Shown here in pieces: positions 6,001 through 54,364 of a stretch of DNA of 64,000 nucleotides. The notes beneath the pieces are model-generated. The model made no database searches, had not been told where the DNA came from, and saw only the letters and a list, made by a program, of their open reading frames with translations. Position numbers and translations under genes: made by a program. The DNA comes from Xiphophorus maculatus (Eukaryota > Chordata > Actinopteri > Cyprinodontiformes > Poeciliidae): positions 15,768,882 through 15,832,881 of the forward strand of contig NC_036454.1 in assembly GCF_002775205.1 (NCBI RefSeq), given 5' to 3'. How positions within the stretch are numbered: position 1 is the stretch's first letter; every line of letters starts with the position of its first letter.

Positions 6001-9000
6001 AACACAGAAAAAGATTGTTTTTTTTGTCACTATATTTCAAATGCTTCAAATGATTATTGGTTACATATTCTTGGCTTCTCTGGAAACCGTCCTGTAAATA
6101 TGGTTTCCAGGATGTTTTGTGGATGAAGGATCTCTGACTCTTGTTTTTTCAGGACTTCTTTTGTGAATTCAGTGAGCAGTCACCCTGTGTGCTCTCCAGA
6201 TCTCTTCTCCAGGTATGAAAATATGAGTCTCCTCTATTGTCCTCACAGCTTGTGTTGAAAAAATATCTAAAAATGATTTAACAAAATTCCTTAAAACTGA
6301 ACTTATTTTATCTCATTTTGTAATTTATTATGTACTTTTTGAACAAGAACAGTTTTTTTTTCAGTCATTTGACTGCAAGCAATTATTTCCTTTTCAAGTT
6401 GGCATAAGTATCAAGGAATTTGAGAACCGTGTCTTTTACCCACTCCTCAAATTGGGAAAGACAAGTGCATTCTGTACTCATCATAAGACAGATGAGTATT
6501 GATCTTCATTAGTGATAAAATGACCACAAGAAAATAGCTTTTTATTTTTATTGGGAGGAGACACAGCATTATGAATGACACTAATAATCTTTCTGAGGTT
6601 TGCATCATGGAAATTCCCAGTTGTGTCATTAGGTGGATTTAGTTGCTACATAAAAATGTTGCTATTTGATTGCAGCATTTTTACATAGATTATTACAAAT
6701 CCTTTCTAAAATTCATTAGTTGTGGGGCTCCTCATGGTTCAGTACTAGGGCCACTTTAAAACTAGAGCACCACTCCCTCTTGCAGAATTTGTTAAAATAT
6801 GTGAGCTTTAACATATTTAAAGCTCACACAGCTGACTTCTTTGTCTGGGCTTTTCTAAATGATTAAGACATAATAATCTTGATGTAGGAAAACTTCTGTT
6901 TTGTGACTTTAAAGAAAGTCACAAAACACGTTGGGTTTTTTTTCCATAATGCTTTGGCATTTGGCAAACACAAATAATACTGATAAGCCTAAGTGACTTG
7001 AAACAGGAAATGTTTAATCTGATTGATTTAATGTGAAGACAGTGAGAAAAAATGTAAATGTGTTGGGTTGTTTTTTTTTTTTTTGAAGTGCATGTAAGTC
7101 TCTTCTTTTCAGACGACGTTCCTGATAGACAATAAGAAAGTGTTCGGCACTCACCTGATGCAGGATATGATAAAAGATGCCCTGAGATACTTTGTTAGCC
7201 CACCAGTCCTCTCCTACAAGTAAGTTTTTGTTAAATGTAGGGTATTATGATTATTACAATATTATAATCAATAGATTATGAGTAATGTGTACAATCTTTG
7301 TTTCTGTCTGCAGTTTAGCTGCATTTAAGGTTAGGATAAGTGTTGTCTTTAGTAAATAATGTGATTTTTGTGTCCAGATGTTGTCTCTTCAACAACCACC
7401 AGGCCAAGGACTACATCGACTCCTTTGTTACTCACTGCTCCAGGGTATATTCTAGACATTCAAATTTGTGCATTGATGTACTTCCTAGGATTTTAGCACA
7501 TTTGCTTAGTTCCGTTACAGGGAGCTGTGCCTAGTGAGAGATATGATTATTACATATCAACTGCTATGGTTTCATAACATTTCCACTGAAACCTGCTGTT
7601 TTCCTGTGCAGCCTTTCTGCAACCTCATCCAGATCCACGGACACAACCGAGCTCGGCAGAGAGACAAACTGGGCCATATTCTTGAAGAGTTTGCTACGCT
7701 ACAGGATGAGGTGAGATTCAGTCATTTTAAAGGTTAAACAAAATACCAGTGTTTTGTTGTGTGTATCACAAGCTAGATTAGCTTGGGGAGTTTAGATGCT
7801 ATATAAGATGTTCGTTTTTTTGTGCTCTTCAGGCTGAGAAGGTGGATGCAGCACTGCACAGCTTACTGATGAAATTGGAGCCTCAACGGCAACATTTGGC
7901 CTGTCTGGGCACCTGGATCCTCTATCATAACCTGAGGATCATGATCCAGTATCTCTTGAGTGGTTTTGAACTGGAGCTTTACAGCATGCATGAATACTAT
8001 TACATCTACTGGTTGGTGCTCATGTATTATTTTTAATTTGGCTTTATCTAAAAAAATAAATTTAAAAAAATCAAATATAAACTAATCAACTGTTTTTGTT
8101 TGTTTTGTGGTTGTAGGTACTTGTCAGAGTTCCTCTATGCATGGCTGATGTCGACACTAAGCAGAGCTGACTCCTCTCAAATGGCAGAAGAGCGGATTCT
8201 GGAGGAACAGCTGAAAGGACGGAGCAGCAAAAAGACCAAGAAGAAGAAGAAAGGTGCAGTTTTAAGTCTAACCTAAGCATGATTCAAAATGTTACGTTTC
8301 CATGTGGAAGGGACATGATGCTCCATAGCATTGAAACCGCTTTATTTTGCTTTAGTTCGCCCTCTTGGCAAAGAGATCACCATGAGTCAAGCGTACCAGA
8401 ATATGTGTGCTGGCATGTACAAGGTAGGAAACAATAAATTATGTTTTTGACACCCTTCCTGACGTGCTAAAGGACAAGTTGACAATGTCCTTCCTGCTTC
8501 TCTTCTGTCAGACCATGGTAGCTTTGGATATGGACGGAAAGGTGCGAAAGCCCCAGTTTGAGCTGGACAGCGAACAAGTCCGCTATGAGCATCGCTTTGC
8601 TCCCTTCAACAGTGTAGTTACTCCCCCGCCTGTGCACTACATCCAGTTTAAGGTAAAGTCAGTGTGTGACCTATCCGGCAGACCTCCTATCCTATCTCAA
8701 ACTTATTTAGCTTTTCTTCCCCTCTCCAGGAAATGTCGGATCTGAAGAAGTACAATCCTCCCCCAGGTTCTGCAGACCTCTACCTGGCTGCCAGCAAACA
8801 TTTCCAGCAGGCCAAGCTCATCCTAGAAAGTGTGCCCAACCCAGACGCTGAGGTCAGGAAGTCAATCTGTTGTTAATCTGTTATGGTGGAACATTTTTCA
8901 ACTTTTGCAAGCTCTAAAGTAGATAAATATTCAAGTATCAGTAAATAATTAAATTCCTACAGTAATGAAATTTGATGCCTAGAAGGATCAGGATTATTTT

Positions 9001-9599: not shown

Positions 9600-11570
9600 T
9601 GTGTCTTGTTTTCTATTTCTGACTTTACTGAGGTGAAACCAGACCTGAAAGCTAATCTGGGCCTGAATCAGAAGCATTTACATTGATGGAGGTTCCAGGG
9701 TGGAACATTATGTTTTTGTTTTATTATCCAATTAAAAAGCATCTTCTGAACACTGTGTGGTAATAATGTGTGCATATCTTTTGTATTCCAATTTCAATTA
9801 TTCAGTCGGCTCATAAAAACATTCACAGTATCATTTAGCTCCATTTGTGTCATTTCTGGAATTATTTTGTAAAAGGAGATATTTTTACAGTGACTCAGAG
9901 CTGACCTAGAGTGTAATTTTGTGGCTGCTTATGGCCCCATGTTGACCCTAAATATTGACTTCAGCTCAAAAAGAGAAAGTTGTATATATATTCCTTTCTC
10001 ACAGTTACATATTTAAAAAAATATTTGCCTGTTAATTTAGATCATTATGGCTTATTTATGTCAAATTCTAGAAACAAGAATGGATTTCTCAGAAAATAAT
10101 TAATTTTAGAGCAATAGCAATGCTGCAGTTGTCTGTTGCTTCTTCAGCTATTTCTAGCGCACTTTTTTCCTCCACTCAACTTTGCAAATGATATTTTTGG
10201 ATAGTTCTGTCTTAGCAGTTTTTCTGTCTTGTATGGCTGACCCTCCTGTTGACTTTACTGAACAACTGTCAAGTTAGTCTCCAGTTCTCTCCATAATGTG
10301 ACATTTCTGTATTAAAAATGATTTTTCGGTGGACTTATGTAATGTTCTGCTTTTTTCAAATTTTGGTTTCCTTTAGCTGTTAGGCATACTATATTCAGTA
10401 AGCTTAAGAGAAATCGATCACTCTGTGTATATGATTTATCTAATATTTGGCATTCATGTATATACTACTAGGAAAAAGTGATCACACCTTTACTGTTTTC
10501 TGTCACACGTTTCATATTATCACACAAATATCGGACAAAGATAACATGAGTAAATAAAAATAGAAATTTTTAAATCATTAAATTAAAGTTACTCAAACTC
10601 AGCTGGGAAGAAAATAATTGGTTCCTAAACCTAATAATTAATGTCAGCAACACCTGAGTTTTTCCTGCTCCAAGTTTGAGAATATCTTGTTTAAGATTAC
10701 ACTACTGTATCTGAGCTAGATTGAAGCCTTAAGTTCACTAACATTGACCATAACTGAGGCAGGTGGGGCCTGCAGTGCTTTAGATGTGTTTCTGGTTTGT
10801 TTTCTAGTCTCCTCGTTGACTCATGTTGGCGTAATTTTGGTTGGTCAGCCCCTCCTGGGAAGGTCTGCTACGCTGCATGATGTTTTCATTTATGGATAAT
10901 GGGTTTAGCTTTGGTTCACTGGCAACCCAAACTCTTCAAAAAGGGTTTGTAACTATTTCCATACTGATAGATGTTAACAACTTTACTTTTCTAATATTTC
11001 CACTAATTCTGGGTATTATTTGTTGTTCTTAAAGATAACTCAGTTGTCAGTGATGTTTAATTTGAATTGTTTAGCAGTTATTTGATGAATTAATCAGGAG
11101 TCCATTACTTTTTGCCAATTGGCCAAGTTTGTTTAGATAGTTTTCCCCTTACTGAGTAAAATCCTCATCATGTATTTACTAAGACTATTTGATGTAAAGC
11201 ATTTTGTATCTGTTCAGTGATGCGAAAATGGTCAAGTTGATGTGAGGATTGCCACACTGGGGTCAAAATAGAACTAAATTTTCAGTTATGGAAATAGTAC
11301 AAGCATTTCAATATACCCCACAAAAGAAAACACCTAATCACAATTTGGCATGTCCAGATGACACTTTAACTAAGTAAACTCCCACGAGTAACTCTTGGAC
11401 TCATTTTTCTAGGAAACTTTTGAAGGCTTCCTAGGAGTTCTGTACTTTAATTCTTGTGAAATAGAAAATGCTCTTGCCACCGAGAACTTTAATCTTGTTC
11501 CAGCAGCCTTAAGTCAAAAAAAATGTTTCTCTGTTCTGTTTTGGTTTATCATTTTTTGTGCTGCTATTCT
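9600..11570. other. Intergenic stretch, nothing recognised
   Basis: AT-rich sequence between the naa35 polyadenylation signal and the first recognisable protease exon. I see no coding signal, RNA gene or clear transposon ends. No signal-peptide exon for the adjacent protease copy could be recognised here. Confidence 0.5.
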
Positions 11571-11582
11571 GCTTAGTTTCAG

Positions 11583-12676
11583 GCTCTGCATCAGCAGTCA
11601 TTGAGAAGAGGGTTCTAGGGAGCAAGTCCGACAAAAACAAGAGGAGCTGCCATGTCCAGATAACATCTGTTCAGGGCGGGAAGTCCTGTGGAGGCGCTCT
11701 GCTCAACCCCCGCTGGGTCGTCACAGCCTCTCACTGTGCAGAGCAGTAAGACGTCACTGAGTTTTAACTTATTCAAGATTATTCAACATCTTCTTCAGCT
11801 ACAAAAGAGAAATTTTTCCTTGTGTATTGAAAAGAAAATGTAACCAGTTGTAAAGTAATTAAAGTGAATGCGGCAATTTACAAATTAGTAAAATCAGTCA
11901 GAATGTATTTTCATATAATTCAGAGTATTTCGTAACATCAAGTTTTTTGTCCTCTTCCCTCGCAGGGAAGTCAAACTAAAGTTTGGCTTAAACATCAAGT
12001 GGTACATGACCCTGCAACTCATTGGGAAAAAACTAGAGCAAACAATTCCTGTTAAGCAGCAGTTAACTTTTAAAGATGAGGAGGAAAAAGCCCAAGATAT
12101 TATGTTCATAAAACCAAATGAAGATGTCTCTCCTAAACTACCCACAATCATCTATGACAAAAAAGACTGCAGTAGGCCAGAGGAGGATGTAAATGTGGAG
12201 ATTGGGGGATGGAAGCAGAGAAAGCAGGTGGGAATTTAAAGAAAAAGGAAAAAGATTATGCTTTTTTTTTTTGTGAAGTCTCATTTATGATCTTTGATAT
12301 CCTCAGGAGTTAAACCTGTTCATGAGGTGAGACGTGCCACCACACAGAGAGAATGATAAGCCTGGCAGCATTTACAACAGTGATGAGGCTACAGTTATGT
12401 GTGCCTTCAAATCTGGAGTGGAGTCCTGCTTTGTAAGCACATTCTTTCACATTGTAGCACTTATATATATTTCTTTATTTCTTACTCCGATCATCGTGTA
12501 AAACAATCTGGCATGTAATCTCCGTGTTTCAGGGCAAAGCAGGTTCAGCTGTGGAGTACAACTGAAAACTCCTTGGAATTATTGTTAGCCAGCCTGTGGA
12601 TAAGTGTGCACAGCATGTTGTAATGCACCATGAGGGAGCACTCATAAGTACAGCAGGGCTCATGATTAATAAGTAA
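11583..12676 (+). pseudogene. Trypsin-fold serine protease homologue, broken copy
   Basis: Paralogue of the intact minus-strand gene at 15.4-16.6 kb, with the same exon layout. Exon 2 (11583-11745) encodes the activation region KRVLGS and CGGALLNPRWVVTASHC with the His57 equivalent. Exon 3 (from 11966) keeps AQDIMFIKP with the Asp102 equivalent. Against the intact copy, exon 3 has a 1-base deletion near its end (GGGGGATGG versus GGAGGAATGG), exon 4 (from about 12307) lacks about 17 bases, and exon 5 (from about 12534) hits an in-frame TGA after GKAGSAVEYN. The first (signal peptide) exon is not recognisable. The catalytic Ser position is already Ala, as in the intact copy. Several lesions make this a pseudogene rather than a short functional gene. 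Confidence 0.85.
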
Positions 12677-15386: not shown

Positions 15387-16594
15387 TCAATTCTCCTTCA
15401 TTGTTTTACCAATCCACTGCATGTACTGACAGATGTCCAGCATTACAATGGAATTAGCACATGAATCCACAGGCTGGCTAACAACAATTCCTCGTAGATG
15501 TCCTTTGTACTCCACAGCTGAGCCTGCATCGCCCTGTAACACAGAAATCACAGGCAGGATGGTTTTACATGTGGAACGGTGTAGAAAAACAAAGCTAAAG
15601 TATTATATATTTATATCAGTATAATGGTTGTCTTACAAAGCAGGACTCCACTCCAGATTTGAAGGCACAGATTGTAGAATCACCGCTGCTGTATTTACTG
15701 TCAGGTTTATCGTTCTCTCCACACTCAGAGATCACTGTGGAGGCACATCTTACCTCACCAACCGGTTTACCGCCTGATAAAAACAAAAGTCCTGAAATGT
15801 CACTTTCTTTTACCAAAAATAAATTGTTTCATTTATGACTAGTTTTTTTATATTCTTACCTTTTGCCTTTGCTCCCATTCCTCCAATCTCTACTTCTGTG
15901 TTTTGCACTAGCTTTGTGCATTCTCCTGAAGGGAGGCTGATGGTGGGAAGTTTGGCTGACATGTCCTCATTCAGCTTGATGAGCATAATGTCATGGGCTT
16001 TTCCTTCTTCATCTTTGAAGGTGTGCTGCTGTTTGGCTAGAATAGTTTGTTCGTGTTTTTTGGAGTTGCCTTTAAACCAAGAGGCAGCTTTTGTAAAAAT
16101 GGACACGTCATTGTTTATGCCGAGCTTCAATTTGACTGTCCTGCAAAACAACAAAATTGTAGTGAAATTACTGGATGGAATCAGCTCAAACTGTCTCATC
16201 AAACACATGCTGCAAAGTCAGTAATTCAAAAAAGTAAAGAAAAGTACAAGCAAAAGAGAACTGCAGATGTCTTACTGCTCTGCACAGTGAGAAGCTGTGA
16301 TGACCCAGCGGGTGTTAAGCAGAGCGCCTCCACAGGACTTCCCGCCCTGAACGGACTCTATCTGGACATGGTACTGCCGATTCTTGCCACAGGATGCACT
16401 CCCAAGAATCCTCTTCTCAATAGTGTTTGATGCAACACCTGAAAAGGAAGTAACAACAGCCATTCAGCATGCTGCAAGTATAAAACACACAAATCAGAAT
16501 GTCTACCGAACAACTTTCAGCCAAGGTCCAAGTAGCTGGAGAAGGAAAAAAACTCACCTGCAACCAGCAAAAGGAATACAAAGCAATGCTCCAT
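15387..16594 (-). CDS. Trypsin-fold serine protease homologue lacking the catalytic serine
   Basis: Five-exon secreted chymotrypsin-fold protein, 254 aa: exons 16558-16594, 16276-16438, 15860-16140, 15637-15773 and 15387-15533 (minus order), all GT/AG and in phase. It starts MEHCFVFLLLVAG (signal peptide). The activation site is KR/ILGS. CGGALLNTRWVITASHC carries His57 and the 42-58 cysteine pair; KAHDIMLIKL carries Asp102. The family motif GDSGGP reads GDAGSA, so Ser195 is Ala and proteolysis should be lost; the residue at the position equivalent to 189 reads Glu. Length and five-exon layout are granzyme- or trypsin-like, and a binding or decoy role is possible. The frame is open throughout, unlike the broken paralogue at 11.6 kb facing it. 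Exact subfamily not recognised. Confidence 0.85.
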
Positions 16595-16653: not shown

Positions 16654-17120
16654 GCCTTATCAGATTTTGGGGGACTTTTTTTTTTTTGCCATAGGCTAGT
16701 CTAGTTAGGCAGCCAATTACAAGTTCCCCTCAAACCTGTTTTATCATGGTGCATCAGTCAAATGAACTGAACAGCACAGAAGATAAACGGAAGAATGGAT
16801 GTCTTAAATGAATGGTTGCTACTGGACAGTAGCAACGTTTTAGCAACATGAAACAAATGAGGACAACCTCGTTCTAAAAGAAGTTCCTGTAAAGGTCACA
16901 GTAAATTTTGTCATATTGTTGTGGAACATTAATGTGCAACAAGGTTTTATGTCATTATTATAGATGTGAAGTTTGTCAAAACGCATTTATTCTTAAAATG
17001 TATGACTGCTCATCCCCTCTTCCTGTCGTCATCTGTTACTGTTGATATTAACCACCAACTTGATTTCCTCTTTTGTCAGAATGAATACAGTGAACCTGAA
17101 TGTGTCTGCCATGAAATAAA

Positions 17121-17143
17121 CAGTAAATTTTGCAGTGTTAAAT
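17121..17143 (+). repeat. Left terminal inverted repeat of the 9.8-kb transposon
   Basis: Matches 22 of 23 bases of the inverted sequence at 26882-26904. The identity ends in a GTGTTAAAT motif that also recurs through the subterminal region. Confidence 0.8.
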
Positions 17144-17520
17144 CAACACCTAAAGAGTTTAATTTAACACTGTCTCCGAGTCTATTTGGTCCTTATCGGA
17201 ATTGGTGTCGATTTAACTCTTTCAATAGTGTTACATTTTCAGAGTTAAATTTAACTCAAAATAGAGTTAATTTTTAACACTAACACTGTGCAGTGTTTAT
17301 AAAACTTAACACTCCTACTTAAATAACTCTGATCAGAGTAAATATGATTCTAATCAGAGTTAATAAGTTACTCCACAGTGGTGACAAATTAACTCTGATT
17401 CTCATGCTTTTCAACACTGCACTGAGTTATTGACAATCAACACTGGAGTTTCATATAACTCCTATGAGTGTTACTCTGACACAGTACTGTGTTGATAATT
17501 TACTCTTTTGCTGTGAAAAA
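17144..17520. repeat. Subterminal motif array of the transposon
   Basis: Dense, both-strand repetition of two short words, AACACTG/CAGTGTT and AACTCTGA/TCAGAGTT, plus near variants, about 20 or more occurrences in under 400 bases, several arranged as palindromes (AGAGTTAAATTTAACTC). Subterminal arrays of this kind are where CACTA-family DNA-binding proteins bind. Fewer, degenerate copies occur at the right end (26785-26900). Confidence 0.75.
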
Positions 17521-17655
17521 GCAACTCCACACAGATATATATGCAGTGCTATTTTTACACTTTTGTAGAGTTAAATGACAATCATAATTCAGTAATGCTT
17601 TTAAAATGTACAATTGAATAAAATCAAGTTACCACAGAAATGCATTTAACTTAAC

Positions 17656-17661
17656 TTTATT
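17656..17661 (-). terminator. Polyadenylation signal of the transposase-like gene
   Basis: AATAAA on the minus strand about 213 bases beyond the stop codon at 17874, a plausible end for the transposon transcript. Confidence 0.5.
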
Positions 17662-17873
17662 GAACTAAAGCAGATGTAAAGGATTTGTTAACTTTTAGTT
17701 AACACACTTTTAGTAGTGTTACAGTAACATGACATGGTGTACATCTTATTACAGTAGAGGACTTTGCATTGACTGTAAAATGGCTTCCAGGGTGCCTGGC
17801 ATGCCAAGCAACCGATCTCAAGTCCACAAATAGTTAACTTCAGTCTCTTAAGAACACCATTAGCAAAATTATC

Positions 17874-19583
17874 CTATGTCTGCATAAAATGGCAATATGG
17901 AACCACATATAAGGCAGTATCTGTCGTACCGTACTTCATTTGAACATCAAATGGTTTGAAGTATAAGAGATCATTTATATGCAAAACCTTTCCAACATTA
18001 TCTGGACGCAGCTTGACCTTAAAGGCATGGTAGTGGTCATCAAAACACATGGTTTCCATCAATTTTCCACAGAGCAAAACACTGTCATCTTTTACAACAA
18101 TTGTTTGAATCTTACAAAATACAGGCATCCCACATGCTACCTCAGTACATATAATAAAGTCAGGACGGTACTCTGTACCATAGTATTTTATCCACTTGGC
18201 AGAAAACACACTGGTTGTCGAAACAATTCCAAACTTTGCAGCAATCGCTACTCCCTCTTTTAACTCACAAAGTGTCACCATCTTTCCTGGACCTACACTG
18301 AATCTTTCCTTGCCAAATGATTCATGATACATTGCCATGTAACTTTGATGCTTTTTCGCTAATGTTTTAGTAATGTTTTTAAAGCTTTTTAATTGTTTCT
18401 TGAAGAAACTATGTTTGGCTTCGTAACGCATGCACCATGTATGCAAAATTGGACCAATGTGCCTTATACTACGAGGGTAATGTATCATGAAGTGATGCTT
18501 TGGCAAGAGATTTATTTTCGGAAATAATTGCTTAAACAACCGATGATGATCAATGATTAAATGTTTGAGGTACATTGTCATGCCCTCTGACAAGACTGGC
18601 GAATTTACAATGCTAACAATATGTAGAAGCAAAAGTAGGAGATGCCAGTGTTTATCATCTGTTTGAATCAAATCACCAAATAGCAGAGGCATATTGCGTA
18701 ACAAGCACCAAAACTGTATGGCTGTTAAACCCAAGTCATTACTTCCATCCAGCATTTTATCTGTTGACAAAGGTGGGCGGTTTCGCTGCTGATTGAAACC
18801 ATAGTCATATGCATGTATTCTACCAGCAACTTGTTCAGTACTTAGGAAGTTGCTATGAATGTACTTCAGAATCAGTTTTACCTCAAACTGACCAACCCCC
18901 TCAAGAATATCATGCATCATGTCTACAGAAAAATTGTTAGCCATGTTGAAATACTGAAGTGAATTCAATAGACAAACACGTTTCACACCATATACATGAG
19001 GAAGCCTAGGATCTGCTTGTACAGTTTGACAGTGTTGTGCATGTTCATCTTCAGTCCTTAGAACAACTTCTGGATGATCTTCAGAGAATATAGTTTGAAA
19101 ACTGTGCTTTTCAAGGAGACAAAAACGACAGCAATAGCGAGCACCAAATGACTCCACAAAGCCAAACAGACCATGCAATCCAAGATTGTCACCTGTAACC
19201 TGAACCACAGTACCATAAATCACAGGTTCAAAGGTTGGAATTTTAAGTCCCTCTGTCTCAAGTACTTTCAGATCGTTAACAAGAGGTTCAAGTATCAAAT
19301 TAAAACTGTATCGTTTGATGTCCTGTGCATGGAATAGAGCACACAAATGAATATTTAGCAAAGACGAATTAAAGATTGGACTGAAATTTCTTAGAGTGAA
19401 ATAGATAGCACCTAATTTATGTAACCCCTTTTTAGGTCCCAATACATTTGCAGTTTCAAAGTCAAACAGCTGAATCTGAAGGGCATCTTTTTGCAAAGAA
19501 AATAGGGGACTTTCTTTAAAATGGATGGCGTCTCTCAAGTCTGCATAAACACCTTCTTTGGGAATATACCCAAGCTTGAACAT
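17874..19583 (-). CDS. TNP2/Transposase_21-like transposase, C-terminal portion (569-codon ORF)
   Basis: Long intronless ORF of a family repeated in fish genomes and usually labelled uncharacterised. Features resembling TNP2-type transposases: VTGDNLGLHGLFGF with Asp at about residue 132, a zinc-knuckle-like CCRFC at 151-155, VDMMHDILEGVG with Asp221 and Glu228, and CMRYEAKH with Glu388. Asp132, Asp221 and Glu388 are my guess at a DDE triad. The motif PKHHFMIHYPRSIRHIGP lies just before the last. The ORF continues the zinc-finger ORF at 19.5-20.3 kb: the two overlap and differ by one base in a run of nine A. The annotated Met is internal; the natural start is probably at 20325. Confidence 0.75.
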   Translation of the reverse strand: MFKLGYIPKEGVYADLRDAIHFKESPLFSLQKDALQIQLFDFETANVLGPKKGLHKLGAIYFTLRNFSPIFNSSLLNIHLCALFHAQDIKRYSFNLILEPLVNDLKVLETEGLKIPTFEPVIYGTVVQVTGDNLGLHGLFGFVESFGARYCCRFCLLEKHSFQTIFSEDHPEVVLRTEDEHAQHCQTVQADPRLPHVYGVKRVCLLNSLQYFNMANNFSVDMMHDILEGVGQFEVKLILKYIHSNFLSTEQVAGRIHAYDYGFNQQRNRPPLSTDKMLDGSNDLGLTAIQFWCLLRNMPLLFGDLIQTDDKHWHLLLLLLHIVSIVNSPVLSEGMTMYLKHLIIDHHRLFKQLFPKINLLPKHHFMIHYPRSIRHIGPILHTWCMRYEAKHSFFKKQLKSFKNITKTLAKKHQSYMAMYHESFGKERFSVGPGKMVTLCELKEGVAIAAKFGIVSTTSVFSAKWIKYYGTEYRPDFIICTEVACGMPVFCKIQTIVVKDDSVLLCGKLMETMCFDDHYHAFKVKLRPDNVGKVLHINDLLYFKPFDVQMKYGTTDTALYVVPYCHFMQT

Positions 19584-20325
19584 TTCTGGAAGTTCTTTTT
19601 TTTTGCAAAATACTCTTCAGTGTTTCCAAAATGGGTATATATGCAAACCTATCAGTTACAATGACTTGATCATATGTCCCAGTACTTTTGTTTTTTCTGC
19701 TGTCAAATCTTGTGCCAAGCACTTTTTCAATAGGTTCAACCAATCCCCATTTCTCTCTCAAGTGTTTGTTTAACTTTGCTTCTGAATTTAGAGGTGTAAA
19801 TGGATTTTCCAATGTTCTGAATGATTGTTCTATTTTGGTCCTGTTCTGTGTATGCTCTGAAGGCAAGCACTGTAAAGCTACATCCATAGCCTGACTGTGA
19901 GTCTCAAAAATCACTTCTTCCATGGATGAGACAAATCTCTTAACAGTAGACTGGCTTAATCCAGCTGCTCCGAGTTGTGCGATAGCAGTAGCACACATAT
20001 CTACAATGCTGATGTTGGACTTCAACTGTGTAGATGTTGTGGCTGTCTCTTCTACATTAGCTGTTGCCAGATCTTCTGCATTACCAAGGTCTGCTCTGCT
20101 TGAATTGACATTGCTGACTTGTTGGTCAGTATTGTTAGTGTGTTTGGTGTTTAAGTGTTTCCTAAACCCAGAAAAGGTTCCAAGCACACGGCCACATCCA
20201 GACTGAGCACATTTAAGGCGAAGATTTTTTCCATCCAAGTAACCATGAACTACTCGTATATGCCGAATAAGTACATTTGTGCAACTTAACTTTGCCTCAC
20301 AAACAAAACATTTCATGCCAAACAA
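19516..20325 (-). CDS. C2H2 zinc-finger N-terminal portion of the transposase-like protein
   Basis: The 269-codon ORF begins MFGMKCFVC. It has two C2H2 fingers: CFVC with H-x4-H ending RHIRVVH (about residues 5-26), and CAQSGCG with HLNTKH (about residues 39-62), followed by a low-complexity Ser/Thr/Asn linker and a helical region. The frame leaves the transposase at a nine-A run (19596-19604 on the plus strand): dropping one A would continue directly into the downstream ORF, so the last ~30 residues are probably out of frame. The start lies only 14 bases beyond the stop of the SAMD3-like gene, suggesting a shared or alternatively spliced transcript. Confidence 0.7.
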   Translation of the reverse strand: MFGMKCFVCEAKLSCTNVLIRHIRVVHGYLDGKNLRLKCAQSGCGRVLGTFSGFRKHLNTKHTNNTDQQVSNVNSSRADLGNAEDLATANVEETATTSTQLKSNISIVDMCATAIAQLGAAGLSQSTVKRFVSSMEEVIFETHSQAMDVALQCLPSEHTQNRTKIEQSFRTLENPFTPLNSEAKLNKHLREKWGLVEPIEKVLGTRFDSRKNKSTGTYDQVIVTDRFAYIPILETLKSILQKKRTSRNVQAWVYSQRRCLCRLERRHPF

Positions 20326-20338
20326 ATCTGTTCAAGTA

Positions 20339-23300
20339 CTAGTGAATCAACCTAGCCCAAATTTCTACCACACAAGGATTTTTCTTCACTTTGCCTACAT
20401 CTATATTGTACACAGTGATTTGGATGAATATGAATATGTTGCGCAGCACAGGGTTGTGTGTTGTGGCAAACACGTAATGTGCCTTAAACAGTTCGTCAAA
20501 AGCACCAAGAGAAGAGGTTGACCTGCAAGCAATGACATTTTTGTCAAGGATGAAGAACTGGTGATCTACTTTCTTCCTCTGTCCCACAGCCAGGGGATAG
20601 GGTTGTGTGCTCATGATGGCATCAAGATGTTCTTGAATGCTGGTTTCTGTCTGAGAAAAAGAAACATTACCATTATAATCCATAGCTGCAATACACAAGA
20701 CAGTTTTCATATGGGCAAAAAGCATTTATCTTATGTGTGATATGGCTCTAAAACTGAAACTCTTCAGTGAAACGACCTCAAATAAAACAAATACAATTTG
20801 CAACAAATACAAACCTTCTTGAAGACCACAAGATGCTTCTCTGGTTGATAGCCAGACATCTTCCAAGGTTTCTTTCGGCCCAATGCAGAGGGGGGAATGA
20901 GGTGTTGCAGCAGCAAAATTGATGAGAGGTCATTATCCCAACCTGTGACAAGAGAAATTTGATGTTGAATTGACCATCAGCAAAAACTATGCAATTAAAA
21001 TTGGTATGTGTGCATCACTAAGTGAAGCTCACACAACAACTGAATCCCACATAATGTGGAAAAAGTCATCCTTACTCATGTCATCATCCACTTCAGTGGC
21101 ATCCTCAGGAGAAGTTCTTCAAGGTCACTGGTGGTTGGAAGTTTTCTGCATTGTTGGATGATCTCTCTCTTGAACGTGGTCATCTGTTGCTCCAGAAACT
21201 TGCCAGACACGCCTTCTCCAAACATCAGGACAAAATCCTGCTCCACCTACAATGTAGATAGTGAAAAACTTTAACATTTTCCAGCCACATTAATTGTATT
21301 CATTTGACTTGTCACAAAAATACATATTGTTTTTTTACATAACTGTGAAGTTATCAAAATAACCATTTAAATAATTACCAAGCCTTTGACATCTTTGAAA
21401 CGTGGAAAGACAGAGAGTATGTTGCTTGGCTGTTGGGGGTAGAGGACTGTGTTGCACCAGAAGTCAAATGTGAGCTTCATCTTCTTCTTGATTGTGTCCT
21501 CATCGGCTGAATGCTTAATCAGTGCGATGGCTTCCTTACACTCTTCTTCACTCAGGACAGTCTCTGGAACAAACTGGGTCTCCTGTCTGACAGCTGGTCC
21601 CCCAAGCCCATGTTCACGCAATGCTTCTTTGCATTTTGCTATTAAATATAAAAAATATACTTAAACTTAAAAACAGAAGAAGAAAAAAAAAAAAAACTAA
21701 CCACCCACAAAGAAGTCAACACCCTCCCTACGGTAGCAGATCTTCAAGTGTTGTAAATGGTTTACCTCCATATGATGTTCGTCTGTCTCTAGCAGTGGAT
21801 CTTTGAATAGTTTTTATCCTCCAGGCTAAGTACCCGATACCACTTGCAGCATCGTAATAATGCTCCTTGGGGATCGAAAGGATGGCAAAAGCAGACATAG
21901 CCACAGAAATGTCAGAATCATAACTAAAAGCTGATGAAGAATTTCTATGCAAACCAAACAGTTACAACTACAAGCAAGTGAATCAAAAAATAGGCAGATG
22001 TCAATAAAATGACAGATCACATGATTTTGACTGACACAACAAGCAAATCTGCTGAGAGCAGACATCTAAGAATATAAAAATATAACTTGTCACATTTCAC
22101 CCAGAAGTTACACTATCATGTACACACCCCACATGTTCACCAACACCCATTTGTGCACCCATGTCAACACAGACCTGCATATCATGTTACTATGGCAGCG
22201 ATGCAATCCGGTCAAGGAAGTATTGCGGTTGGTGCCAGAAGGCTGGCATCCTGAAGGTGAAAACTAATTTACTATGGAGCTTGTAATTTGTCTTGGTCTG
22301 ATCTACAAAAGAAACAGTTTAGAGCTGTGGCAGGACACAATTGAGTGCCATAAAGTATTTGATGTAGATTTTTTGATTAGACTTGTGAAAATGAGAAGTG
22401 TTCACATATAAAACTTTAAATTAATATTTTCCAGTTAGTCAAACACAGAAGCTTCTTTTGTTTTATTAAAATCAGAGTTAAGGGATGGTAAAAGAATGGT
22501 AATTAGTTTTTAAAAAATTAAATGAAGCAATTTTAGGCAAGTAAAAAAAAAAACAAGTTTAGTGATGAATATCCACTTTTCTAGATGGTACCAAACTGTT
22601 CCAAATAGCAAAACTCCTAGTCTATACTAAAATGTCTCCAAGTTCTCTTTAATGTGCCTCAGTTTCACGCATTTTTTCACAGGCAATATACACAACTAGA
22701 TTTATGGGTTTCAAGTGTTTGTAGCCTCATTTGTTACATTTTTAGAAGGTTTATATAAAACATTGTTGAAAGTTGAAATAAAAAAAATCTCAGCAGCAAT
22801 TTCACAACTGCAACCTAAGGAAACTCATGTGCAAAGCAACTGCATCAGTTAAATAAATGACCTGATAGAAATTAAAAGTTTTCAATGCATCATTTAACAG
22901 TAACACAGCTGTATGATACTTACATAACCTTTCCTGGAGAATGGATCAATGAGGTAGGGAAATAAGCTCACAATTCCTCTGGAATACATTTCTTTAACCT
23001 CTCTGCGTGGTGAGATCCTGCAAAATTAAAATGGCCAAGGTATATTATCCATGGTATGCATTGAATTTAACAAAAACTTGAATTTCATCTAAACACTACA
23101 TTGAGCTAACCAAAGAATATTTACAAATTACCCATTCTTCTCTGTCATATCAGCTGCCAGTATGTTAACCATTTTCCTTCTGGTTTCATCTGTGAGGCAC
23201 TTGCTTCGATTAAATTCCTTCATGATCCTTTCTCCACCAGGTGTGTTGTTGAGAATGGATTCCACCAACTTAAAAGAACAAATCATTTCAGCTTTTAAAT

Positions 23301-24101
23301 ACATATCAAGTGCTAGTGCACCTCTGAATTGTTAGTGCACCTCTGAATTGTTGTAACTTTCAACATTTAACAGAAAAACGTGGTGGGCTGCTCTAGCACC
23401 CCAACCACCAAGCATCGTAGGTTTTCTGGGGGAAAATGTGATAAAGATTTTTAGAACACAATACTTTTTGTAAGTTCTTGAGTTAATTCTTACTTGTTCA
23501 GGCTCTGTGTCTAACTGCTGCTTGTTTAGCAGAAGGACTCTCTGAAAGAATGAGTATCTCTTGAGAATCAGACAAGCTTGGCTAAGATTCCTCAGGCGAT
23601 TCCACCAAGGAGACACATTTTGATCATAAGAGAAGCAGATGAAAGACAAAAACACTAACCACAATGAATTAGAAAGCTCATTAAATACTAACATAACTGA
23701 CAAATGTAACAAACCAGTTTCATATTTGATGGTTAGGACTCCAGCCAAGGGATCCTTAACAACATCCTCATCCAACTCAGTCCCAGAACTGTCAACAACC
23801 TTCACGCCCTCTTATAGCTGGCACGCCTTTTGCAAATGCTAGTGAAAAAGACAAATGTTTGTGTAAATCACAATTATGAGGTTATGTTACTCTAATACTC
23901 ATTAATACTATGTGCATAGACTCTAGAACATTACTTTTGAAAAAACAACGGGTGAATTAACATTACAAGCACCTCATAGCTTCCTGTTAAGCTTCATTAA
24001 TACCGGTGTCTTACCTGTAATCAAAAACTCCTTCAGAAATGGCTCTGTTAGTCAGACAAATGTTTGTTGTTCGCCAAGTCTTGTTTTAATCAACATGGTT
24101 C
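20339..24101 (-). pseudogene. SAMD3-like (fish uncharacterised family) multi-exon gene inside the transposon, N-terminus damaged
   Basis: Homologous exons recognised, minus order, boundaries approximate: 24015-24101, 23715-23838, 23494-23640, 23143-23270, 22942-23018, 21776-21880, 21380-21640, 21077-21247, 20818-20944 and 20339-20651. Landmarks: VKVVDSSGTELDEDV, TRRKMVNILAADM, EMYSRGIVSLFPYL, YYDAASGIGYLAWRIKT, PRFKDVKGL, QDFVLMFGEGVS, and LGAFDELFKAHYVF near the C-terminus (ends RLIH). This is the family annotated in fish as sterile alpha motif domain-containing protein 3-like; its function is unknown. The first coding exon, starting MLIKTRLGEQQTFV, then meets TGA, and the next has an apparent 1-base insertion followed by TAA before VKVVD. 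The downstream exons look open. Confidence 0.65.
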
Positions 24102-24550
24102 CTGCAACACATAATTCCTCAGTCATTCACTTTTAGTACTGGAATGCTGTCACATGTAAAACATGTGCCAACTGCTTCAAAAGCTAATTCAACTTACATT
24201 ACATCACTTACACAAAACATAATGACTAAACTTTACAGATTAATGTGTCTTGGGTGCAAAGTAATTTGACTTCATGGGACTCTTATCAAGGTTAGACAGT
24301 TACTGAGCACCTTTTACATTAGCAACAACTAGAACAGTTCATGAAGTCGCCTCGCTTGTTTTTCAACTTTTCCTTTAGCATTAGCAACGGTAATGGAGGA
24401 GTCAAGAAAGGTTTGTGCAAATCATCACTCGCGCCCAATTCAGTGTTAACTGCATAGCTAGCTGGACTATTAGCACCTGCTTACAGTTCCAATAATTCAG
24501 AGTAGCGGGGTAAGAAGACTGTCGATCACAAGTCACACCATCCCGTTTAC

Positions 24551-26163
24551 AAAAATATGTCCATCCATCCATCCATCTTCTTCCGCTTATCCGAGGTCGG
24601 GTCGCGGGGGTAGCAGCTTCAGAAGGGAGGCCCAGACTTCCCTCTCCCCGGCCACTTCTTCCAGCTCTTCCGGGGGAATCCCGAGGCGTTCCCAGGCCAG
24701 CCGAGAGACATAGTCTCTCCAGCGTGTCCTGGGTCTTCCCCGGGGCCTCCTCCCGGTGGGACGTGCCCGGAACACCTCACCAGGGAGGTGTCCAGGAGGC
24801 ATCCTGACCAGATGCCCAAGCCACCTCAACTGGCTCCTCTCGATGTGAAGGAGCAGCGGCTCTACTCTGAGTCCCTCCCGGATGACTGAGCTTCTCACCC
24901 TATCTCTAAGGGAGAGCCCAGCCACCCTACGGAGAAAACCCATTTCGGCCGCTTGTATCCGCGATCTCGTTCTTTCGGTCATGACCCAAAGCTCATGACC
25001 ATAGATGAGGGTGGGAACGTAGATCGACCGGTAAATCGAGAGCTTCGCTTTTTGGCTCAGCTCTCTCTTCACCACGACGGACCGGTACAGCGCCCGCTTG
25101 ACAGCAGACGCTGCGCCAATCCGCCTGTCGATCTCCCGCTCCCTTCTTCCCCCATTCGTGAACAAGATCCCGAGATACTTAAACTCCTCCACTTGGGGCA
25201 GGACACCCCCCCTGACCCGGAGAAGGCACTCTACCCTTTTCCGGCTCAAGACCATGGCCTCGGATTTGGAGGCACTGATCCCCATCCCGGCTGCTTCACA
25301 CTCGGCTGCGAACCGCTCCAGCGAGAGCTGCAGATCACGATCTGATGAAGCCAAAAGGACCACATCGTCTGCGAAAAGCAGAGATGAGATCCTAAGGCCA
25401 CCAAATCGGAGCCCCTCAACACCTTGGCTGCGCCTAGAAATTCTGTCCATGAAAGTGATGAACAGAATCGGTGACAAAGGGCAGCCCTGGCGGAGTCCAA
25501 CTCTCACCGGAAACGAGCCCGACTTACTGCCGGCAATGCGGACCAGACTCTGACACCGGTCATACAGGGACCTGACAGCCCGTATCAAAGGGCCCGGTAC
25601 CCCATACTCCCGGAGAACCCCCCACAGGGCTCCCCGAGGGACACAGTCGAACGCCTTCTCCAAGTCCACAAAACACATGTGGTTGGGCGAACTCCCATGC
25701 ACCCTCCAGGACCCTGCCGAGGGTGTAGAGCTGGTCCAGTGTTCCACGACCAGGACGAAAGCCACACTGCTCTTCCTGAATCCGAGGTTCGACTATCCGA
25801 CAGACCCTCCTCTCCAGGACCCCTGAATAGACCTTGCCAGGGAGGCTTAAGAGTGTGACCCCTCTATAATTGGAGCACACCCTCCGGTCCCCCTTTTTGA
25901 ACAGGGGGACCACCACCCCAGTCTGCCAATCCAGGGGAACTGCCCCCGATGTCCATGCGATATTGCAGAGTCGCGTCAACCAACACAACCCTACAACATC
26001 CAGAGCCTTAAGGAACTCCGGGCGGATCTCATCCACCCCCGGAGCCCTGCCACCGAGGAGCTTTTTAACCACCTAGGCGACCTCGCCCCCAGAGATTGGA
26101 GAGCCCAACCCAGAGTCCCCAGGCTCCGCTTCCTCAGTGGAAGGCATGTGGAAAAATATGTCC
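24551..26163 (-). mobile_element. Rex3-like (RTE clade) LINE, 5'-truncated, with 12-bp target duplication
   Basis: Non-LTR retrotransposon nested in the DNA transposon. The minus strand ends in the (GATG)n tail typical of Rex3 (24561-24577). Both sides carry the 12-base direct repeat AAAAATATGTCC (24551-24562 and 26152-26163). The 5' end stops at about 26151, so the endonuclease domain is missing; about 1.6 kb remains. Local GC is far higher than the surroundings. The clade call rests on the reverse-transcriptase wording and tail and is not tested by alignment. Confidence 0.85.
24587..26072 (-). pseudogene. Rex3 reverse transcriptase remnant, frameshifted
   Basis: Two overlapping minus-strand frames: 25560-26072 (GRAPGVDEIRPEFL, CGFRPGRGTLDQL) and 24587-25765 (LEKAFDCVPR, GLRQGCPLSP, the active-site box FADDVVLL at residues 131-138, and the C-terminal RPRGRPRTRWRDYV). 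A frameshift in the overlap near 25.6-25.7 kb breaks the reading frame between the finger and palm motifs, and the N-terminal endonuclease is absent, so it cannot be active. Confidence 0.85.
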
Positions 26164-26319
26164 CTCAAATGTAATTGAAAACGAATCAAACCATGTTAAA
26201 TAAACAGACTCAACCAGAATAAAATAGAGACTAACGAAAAAAGGAGCAGAGTGGCTAACAGCTAGTTTATGAAACTCCAGGCACCAAGGCAGGCAAATGC
26301 CGGCATAAATTTACTTAGC

Positions 26320-26350
26320 AAAAAAAAAAAAGGGGGGGGGGGGGGGGGGG
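26320..26350 (+). repeat. Abrupt A12-G19 homopolymer junction
   Basis: Twelve A followed directly by nineteen G inside the transposon intron. Such runs are unstable, and an assembly or base-calling length error is possible. Confidence 0.9.
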
Positions 26351-26678
26351 CGTTAACATTACTGTTGTACTGAAAAGCCGTACAGCCAACTTGACTTATT
26401 TTTTTCTCAATCCACACGCTTTCTTGAATTTATGTCACCTTTTTTTTAAAATAAAGAACATATCTACGTATGTAATATGGCTTGGACATGGATTTAAGGC
26501 GGACATAGTCGAGTTGGACGAGCTAACATTTTAAGCTAGGCATTCACTCGCTCAGGTTAGCCGTGCAAAACTTGGTATTAAGACATCAAAACTCATGCCG
26601 GAGTACACAATAAATATTCTTGTGAAACAATTCATGTTTAAAACATAAAATTGTATTATCTTATAATAAGAAACTTAC

Positions 26679-26800
26679 CGCAGTCATTCAAGAAGGAGAA
26701 AAATGGCGCCCACGCAACGGTTAGACTTGTTGGTTTGAGAGGAGGAGGTGGGCGGAGCTTGTCAGAGTCAAATTGACGCGACGTGTATACACTCTGGAAA
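26679..26800 (-). promoter_or_regulatory. Probable first non-coding exon and promoter of the transposon
   Basis: On the minus strand a GC-rich stretch with GCGTGGGCGCCATTTTTCTC (a GGCGCCATTTT element like YY1/E2F sites) runs into ATGACTGCG followed by the strong donor GTAAGT at 26678. It lies about 100-220 bases inside the right end, the expected place for the promoter of both transposon genes. Confidence 0.5.
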
Positions 26801-26881
26801 TTTACACCAACACTATGTGGCATTTTACTCAATCTGTTGTTGTATTTGCTCTGAAAGAGTCAATGAATTGTGACACTGCAT

Positions 26882-26904
26882 ATTTAACACTGCAAAATGT
26901 ACTG
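26882..26904 (-). repeat. Right terminal inverted repeat of the 9.8-kb transposon
   Basis: Inverted partner of 17121-17143 with a single mismatch; it ends ACTG on the plus strand and is followed directly by TGAACCT. Confidence 0.8.
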
Positions 26905-28900
26905 TGAACCTACTGGACCTGAGATGAACAAAGAAGTGTTACATACGTTCAAGAAATTTTAATACATAGTCATATGCAATGAATTAAAATATATTTTCTG
27001 ATTAAGTTTGCTTGTCAGATTAAACATATCTTTTCAAAATAGTCTTAAAGGGAGACTTTAACCTACTTTTCACATGTATCAAGTATCAAGAGTTGCTGTA
27101 TGACATAGTATTTTTTTTTGTTTTGTTTGCAGAGTACTGTATGTGTGAGAGTTTCCAGAGTTCAGTAAACCTATTATTCATACAGCAGCATAAAGTTCGC
27201 ACTTTATCCCTCTAGCCTAAATTTATTTAGGCTAGATGCATTTAAAAAGTTGCATCTGGCCAATGGAGGGTCAGAATTTATGGAAAATAAAACTACTGGG
27301 AGAGTTGTTGTTTACTTATAATGTGAATCAGATGAAGATCAGTCTATTCCAAGTTAAATTAAATGTAAAACTTTCACAGATGAATAAAATCAAGAGCAAA
27401 AAGCCTAGCTGACAGTTTATGGCTGTCAGTACACAGTTAAATACTGCTAAAAAAAGTATCCCTGTAGACTGAAAAGAAGTATGCTTTCAGTTTATAGTCC
27501 CACTTGCTGATCTTGAATATTTTAAACTGAAAACAAAGCAACAAGCTAGCCAATTTTCTTTGTACACCTTGCTTTGCATTTGAGATAACTGTATTATTTA
27601 AATACTGTGGTACATTTTTATCTGAAAGCACATAGATAATTATTCAAATGTTTTATGACCAAATAGATTGTGTGCTTTCACATTGCCATTATAAGTTGAA
27701 ATTTTGTTCAAGCGAAGTCCTGTGGTTTAAAAGGTAAGTGAGTTCATGCATTTTGATGGCAAAACATGTTGCATTTGCTAGTTATAGTGCATTCCTCTCT
27801 GACAATCTAAATAAAATGTTTTTTTTTCTCCAGACATCATTCAGAAGAACAATGTAGTGTGAATGAAAAGCAAAGTTAAACTAAAATGATGGGGGAAAAA
27901 AAATAAAAAATATGTGGAAGAAACTGAAAACTGCCCTTCTAATAGAAGACATATCAACTAAAATGGCAAAACTACTAATCTAATGATCAAATGTTGGGTA
28001 ATCAGTGAAGGCATATGGTTAACTACGTTTGTTGCTTAAATTAGAAGATGCTTTTCTGAAGCCACGCTATCAGCAGAAAGTCCTCAAAAAGTTACAAGAA
28101 CATATTCGCTAGTCAAAATAGAAACGATGCAACAATTGTAGAATGATGGAAGGAAAAATATCACTTTTGGTTACAAGAAATAGCACAAATAACAATACTA
28201 ATAAAACATTTTTTATTCAACTCTATTGCAACAGAACAACATGATTATTTAAATCTTTCATTTTAGAAGTAAAATAAGGTCATAGCAATAAATCAAATCA
28301 AGCAAAACAAAAAATAAAAAACGTATTTTCTTTTAAGGTTAGCACATTTGCATTTTAGAAAAGTTTCTCTTTTTTATTAATTTTTAACACAGATGAAGTA
28401 TTTGAACATCACAATTAAACTGTCTAAACTTTACATTAACAGACAACAGTAAAATATGTAAAAGCAGAAAGAAAACAGAAACAATCAAGGATTTTCATTG
28501 GCAGTTTTCCATCAAGGCTGAAATTGTACTTTAAATAATTCTTTTTAAATTATTACATTACAGGCTCTCTGCTTATTAGCAGGTACGTCCCTTTGTGATT
28601 CCACCTAAACTGTTTGACATTTTCTTTTAAACTGTGGCAACTTCTTCCTTTGGATTATGAAAATAAACAAAGCTGCTTAATGAATTAACAGATCTCCACA
28701 ATTTGCTAGGGTTTTGTGTCAGATCTTATAATTCAGCATAATGAAAGATAAAAGAAAAATAACAAAATTTGAATATTAAGAAGTTTGTATGAGTTCAAAA
28801 ATACTGCAAAAGTTTAGATTACAGAAAAAGTGAGTTTTATTTACATTTACAACATTTTTGGAGTTTTGTCCTGTGTTTTAATATGCAACTAGAAAGTATG
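26905..28900. other. Intergenic AT-rich stretch, no gene seen
   Basis: No long ORF or splice pattern of a recognisable family. Sequence is rich in A/T homopolymers. No RNA gene was recognised. Confidence 0.5.

Positions 28901-54250: not shown

Positions 54251-54364
<114 letters not shown>

Follow-up and report, generated by a model that had tools for sequence, protein, structure and literature searches.

A probable decayed two-gene DNA transposon of the EnSpm/CACTA type in Xiphophorus maculatus

Does the DNA enclosed by a pair of closely matched inverted ends in the fish Xiphophorus maculatus represent a single mobile element, which carries a transposase gene together with a second, spliced gene, or have two separate genes come to lie side by side? 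This question is raised by a locus between positions 17120 and 26905 of a window of 64,000 nucleotides (positions 15,768,882 to 15,832,881 of NC_036454.1, assembly GCF_002775205.1; all coordinates below are those of this whole stretch), for which a preliminary description made from the letters alone had proposed a transposon with a C2H2/TNP2-like transposase and a SAMD3-like protein. The analysis points, with reasonable though not full confidence, to a decayed, formerly autonomous two-gene DNA transposon of the animal EnSpm/CACTA (CMC) type, measuring about 8.2 kb before a long interspersed nuclear element (LINE) inserted into it. In the single copy seen, the reading as one two-gene element has support, because the ends are matched, both genes lie on a common strand with a junction of 22 bases, a putative 5' untranslated exon and a poly(A) signal lie at opposite ends, and lesions are found in both genes.

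The terminal inverted repeats, located at 17120-17143 (plus strand) and 26882-26905 (minus strand), are complementary at 23 of their 24 positions (96%), in agreement with the near-perfect ends that had been claimed, and provide the terminal repeats expected of EnSpm/CACTA (CMC) elements. When pairs of 24 nucleotides with at most one mismatch and at least 1000 nucleotides apart were counted, one was found in 16900-27100 and none in 200 dinucleotide-preserving shuffles. When up to three mismatches are allowed, the inner 19 bases match at two places in the window, namely these two ends, the shuffle expectation being a mean of 0.16 with at least two matches in 1 of 100 shuffles. Setting the start of the element one base inward yields ends of the CA..TG form (CAGTA..TACTG); the strict CAC of EnSpm is present at the right end only, and the left end reads AAC. 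An 18-base pattern of the ends gave 14 matches in the genome_contigs collection, where, with equal base frequencies assumed, chance alone would give about 15 in 257 billion bases, and these matches are taken as chance; the same pattern had one match in viral_contigs, the chance expectation having been computed for genome_contigs only.

Inside the left end lies a cluster of subterminal motifs, AGAGTTAA and AGTGTTAA in both orientations (17134-17574), whose first copy falls within the inverted repeat. The window has 15 copies of the motif, ten of which fall within the 521 bp of 17120-17640, a concentration in the left 0.5 kb with a binomial probability of 3.7e-18, which is to be read with the reservation that it disregards local duplication of repeats and that the motif was picked after the region had been viewed. 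Both inverted ends contain the motif, the copy in the right end being AGTGTTAA. An array of subterminal repeats of the kind known from EnSpm/CACTA elements is therefore present, strong on the left and with one copy on the right.

The transposase gene occupies the left part of the element on the minus strand. Its catalytic part is an open frame of 580 codons at 17874-19616, of which 569 are counted from the first ATG, as described previously; by the local base composition, a frame of this length has a chance probability of about 4e-17 for one given start. The frame contains, in this order, a D in LFDFETAN (residue 52, codon at 19463), a second D in TGDNLG (residue 143, codon at 19190), a CxxC (residue 163, codon at 19130), the peptide DMMHDILEG (residue 232, codon at 18923) and an E in RYEAKH (residue 399, codon at 18422). 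The resulting order D-D-CxxC-E is that of EnSpm/CACTA transposases with DDE and C(2)C motifs, the patterns having been selected by eye, and we take these residues to correspond to the DDE and C2C motifs of that group, which agrees with how the CMCT clade is described in PMC12730594. A DUF4218-like segment lies at 18297-18629. An N-terminal part with two C2H2-patterned fingers (19519-20316) starts at the ATG at 20316 in a frame different from that of the catalytic part; this frame (19516-20331) overlaps the 580-codon frame at 19516-19616, and the overlap includes a run of nine A at 19604-19596. The transposase gene is hence best described as broken by a frameshift, slippage at this site being less likely. 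A TNP2/EnSpm-type transposase, as had been proposed, is supported by the motif order and weakly by DUF4218.

Relatives were sought in collections of bacteria, archaea, phages, plasmids and viruses, not of fish. Within this scope, six peptide patterns of the catalytic frame found no relative in viral_contigs and genome_contigs, a search able to detect close relatives only, tblastn of the same frame found none among plasmids and phages, and neither the C2H2 part nor exon 11 of the second gene had a relative in viral_contigs. NCBIfam models, which are prokaryotic, returned no informative match to the catalytic frame, to the middle part of this frame or to that exon. A sequence search of the PDB with the catalytic frame returned one match at chance level (E 0.21), and the structure predicted from this frame alone had a mean predicted local distance difference test (pLDDT) score of 32.8, with all 580 residues below 50.

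Upstream of the transposase, on the same minus strand, a separate multi-exon gene had been proposed, and this is borne out as a model: a chain of 11 exons runs from 26720 to 20339 with GT-AG at all 10 introns. It begins with a putative 5' untranslated exon 1 (26679-26720, donor GCG/GTAAGT, its 5' limit arbitrary), which lies some 185 bases from the right end and is followed by exon 2 (24015-24101), with an ATG at 24096 and one in-frame stop, exon 3 (23715-23810), exon 4 (23494-23541), whose boundary is uncertain, exon 5 (23132-23268), exon 6 (22924-23017), exon 7 (21766-21865), exon 8 (21379-21638), exon 9 (21076-21246), which has an internal frame break, exon 10 (20815-20942) and exon 11 (20339-20650), which ends in a TAG at 20341-20339. 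Phases worked out by hand are consistent across exons 2-3, 4-9 and 10-11, and exon 9 joins exon 10 only after a frame change. The exon boundaries and splice sites of this model were chosen by the authors with the expected protein in mind, and the model is therefore no independent support for the name SAMD3-like. An exact 19-base tandem duplication of 2.1 copies lies between exons 5 and 4 at 23314-23352.

The joined protein of the second gene has 478 letters, three of them X. In Pfam it matches no family at E values up to 10, hence lacks a SAM domain, and a search of the PDB returned a ribosomal protein only, at the chance-level E of 0.23. The name SAMD3-like thus received no support from these searches, and the presumed resemblance would be to SAMD3 outside its SAM domain; SAMD3 itself is a vertebrate gene with a SAM domain, and none was found in the second gene here.

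The two genes stand in close order. From the stop of the second gene (20341-20339) to the transposase ATG at 20316 there are 22 bases (20317-20338, minus strand), which replaces the 14 bases given earlier. The gene strand has AATAAA at 17656, at 18511 within the transposase and at 22462, and it has ATTAAA at 17158, 18388, 22648 and 24085; neither is found between the second gene and the transposase. The AATAAA at 17656-17661 (minus strand), about 210 bases past the transposase stop, is placed as a poly(A) signal. Because a putative 5' untranslated exon lies near the right end and this signal near the left end, the arrangement suggests that second gene and transposase form one transcription unit. 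The stretch just upstream of exon 1 is GC-rich and looks promoter-like by eye, no promoter search having been made, and room for a promoter of the transposase exists only within the second gene. If exon 1 were spliced to an exon beginning at 20327, the ATG at 20316 would come first. An in-frame fusion of exon 10 to a transposase exon at 20327 was also considered and rejected, as by hand reading the joined frame meets an immediate stop.

The copy has decayed. The transposase carries one frameshift and the second gene two or three lesions, which suggests that the two decayed together within one dead copy. A LINE with reverse transcriptase (24563-26163, minus strand; RVT_1 E 5.3e-25) is nested in the first intron and is flanked by a 12-bp target duplication, AAAAATATGTCC, at 24551-24562 and 26152-26163, the second copy being included in the range of the LINE; this insertion is later than the element, which without it measures 8185 bases. 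A (CATC)n-like run is seen at one edge of the LINE fragment.

A number of observations weigh against assigning the locus to a two-gene EnSpm/CACTA element. When the flanks were compared at 15 symmetric boundaries, no match of 3-5 bp was found that could be a target-site duplication, which in EnSpm/CACTA (CMC) elements measures 2-5 bp. At the outer boundary they read TAA and GAA (two of three bases equal), and matches of 2 bp (TA, AT) occur at two of the 15 boundaries, both within the inverted repeat, in which any self-complementary pair is bound to match; a GTA/GTA match requires boundaries that are unequal by one base and again falls within the repeat. The missing clear target-site duplication speaks against clean EnSpm/CACTA membership, or reflects the age of the copy. 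Concerning the subterminal motifs, the right end has a single copy as compared to ten on the left, and the window total of 15 is modestly above that of shuffles (mean 8.9, 2 of 100 reaching 15). As regards the transposase, the C2H2/TNP2-like assignment stands in the motif order and the two C2H2 patterns, and profile searches lend it less: Pfam DUF4218 on 18297-18629 has E 0.0078 and 16.5 bits, below the cut-off of 27 (E 0.13 when the whole 580-codon frame is used), and Transposase_21 has no match in the Pfam search of the catalytic frame. Pfam finger models match the N-terminal part, all below their cut-offs, and the best match of this part is to FOXP-CC (E 0.00022, below cut-off) and not to a C2H2 model. 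Histidine pairs in the catalytic frame are H-x2-H at 192 and H-x4-H at 352 and 374, which leaves the candidate for the H(3-4)H motif, expected between the second D and the E, ambiguous. In the gene models, exon 4 of the second gene is out of phase with exon 3, exons 2 to 4 have poor acceptors, and the candidate acceptor at 20327, ahead of the transposase ATG, is weak. Finally, the two-gene arrangement is known from a single copy.

Among other explanations, the one that survives best, though we consider it unlikely, is a passenger origin of the second gene: a single capture by the element or its lineage would have brought in a host gene that plays no part in transposition. It draws on the second gene having neither a known function nor a Pfam name, on only one copy having been seen, and on the second frame of plant CACTA elements being described, in the portion of the source available, as open to intruding coding sequences (PMC8978399). 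However, the modelled second gene begins near the right end, upstream of the transposase in one unit, and the transposase would therefore depend on it for transcription; a spliced gene with many introns is equally compatible with plant two-gene elements as with capture. Considerably less probable is a composite, in which two short non-autonomous relatives, both of one family, happen to lie on either side of an older transposase gene and a gene unrelated to it. The lack of a clear target-site duplication and the uneven distribution of subterminal motifs, ten on the left and one on the right, would suit such an origin, but the ends are single and each points inward, with two matches in the window at up to three mismatches, so that no second end was seen for either short element, and the genes fit tightly within the ends. 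The least probable account is a nested one, in which the second gene was an independent multi-copy gene and a transposase element landed at its 3' end; this account would explain separate reading frames just 22 bases apart, but no copy of the inverted end or other long inverted partner lies near 20.3 kb and the sole matched ends surround both genes. An open frame at the left end had also been considered as a host exon entering the element, and was dropped by eye with no library search behind it.

For the preferred reading of a two-gene transposon, its working can be modelled as follows. Transcription across the element would start from a single promoter at the right end, and the transcript might yield two proteins. 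One would be an accessory protein made from many exons. The other, encoded by the last exon, would be a transposase with two C2H2 fingers and a DDE core, whose frame could be reached through alternative splicing or by reinitiation past the 22-base junction. Having bound the inverted ends, the transposase would carry out cut-and-paste transposition. The accessory protein may help in this, its most likely contribution being to bind the subterminal AGWGTTAA repeats or to hold the complex together; this role is modelled on TnpA of En/Spm, because that protein binds subterminal repeats (PMC2613891, as far as its accessible text goes).

Comparison with known systems gives a mixed picture, the general kind of element being already known. 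For the CMCT clade, the available part of the source reports CA..TG ends for most members and transposases that have C(2)C and H(3-4)H motifs in common (PMC12730594). The locus resembles animal EnSpm/CACTA (CMC/CMCT) elements in the D-D-CxxC-E order, in CA..TG ends if the start is moved one base inward, and in subterminal repeats, here one-sided; it differs in that no clear target-site duplication is present, the ends are not CACTA/CACTG, Transposase_21 has no match and the H-H motif is ambiguous. In plant CACTA elements, according to the part of PMC8978399 at hand, two open frames occur with subterminal repeats and DUF4218 accompanies Transposase_21 in the transposases. Maize En/Spm produces two alternatively spliced transcripts, from which TnpA and TnpD are made, both of them needed, and maize En/Spm (tnpD and tnpA) and soybean Tgmt* are like the present locus in having two proteins, a TNP2-type transposase and a many-exon spliced partner, and subterminal arrays (PMC2613891, in the sections accessible). 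They differ in order, since at the present locus the accessory gene precedes the transposase; a comparison of the second protein with TnpA is a fair analogy of layout. The portions available of PMC3485254, PMC4158355 and PMC7599744 describe no second gene in fish EnSpm elements. Among the papers listed in a search of open-licence literature, none was seen to pair a SAMD3-like gene with an animal transposon, and Repbase may well contain such a case.

Elsewhere in the window, exons of NAA35, a subunit of the NatC acetyltransferase, lie at 7510-8033 on the plus strand (Pfam TPR_NAA35 E 1.8e-13 and 3.3e-23). Trypsin-like protease exons occur in opposite orientations at 11513-11746 (plus strand) and 15813-16463 (minus strand; Pfam Trypsin E 2.6e-8, 1.4e-4 and 1.4e-7 for these exons), and inverted matches, 10 of 55 positions among the matches listed, link about 11.7-12.6 kb with 15.5-16.3 kb. 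A perfect AT dinucleotide repeat of 55.5 copies is located at 54253-54363.

What the arrangement means depends on whether it recurs. If the pairing of the two genes between such ends does so, many fish genes that are annotated as uncharacterised would belong to transposons. Animal EnSpm elements would then follow the same two-protein scheme as plant CACTA elements, though with another second protein, and a transposition assay could address what the SAMD3-like family does. It can tentatively be imagined, as a doubtful extension, that SAMD3-like proteins are the second transposition factor in an EnSpm-type lineage spread across fish, and that vertebrate SAMD3 arose when a copy of this gene was domesticated and joined to a SAM domain. 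If true, the mammalian host gene SAMD3 would descend from the accessory gene of a transposon and not from a transposase.

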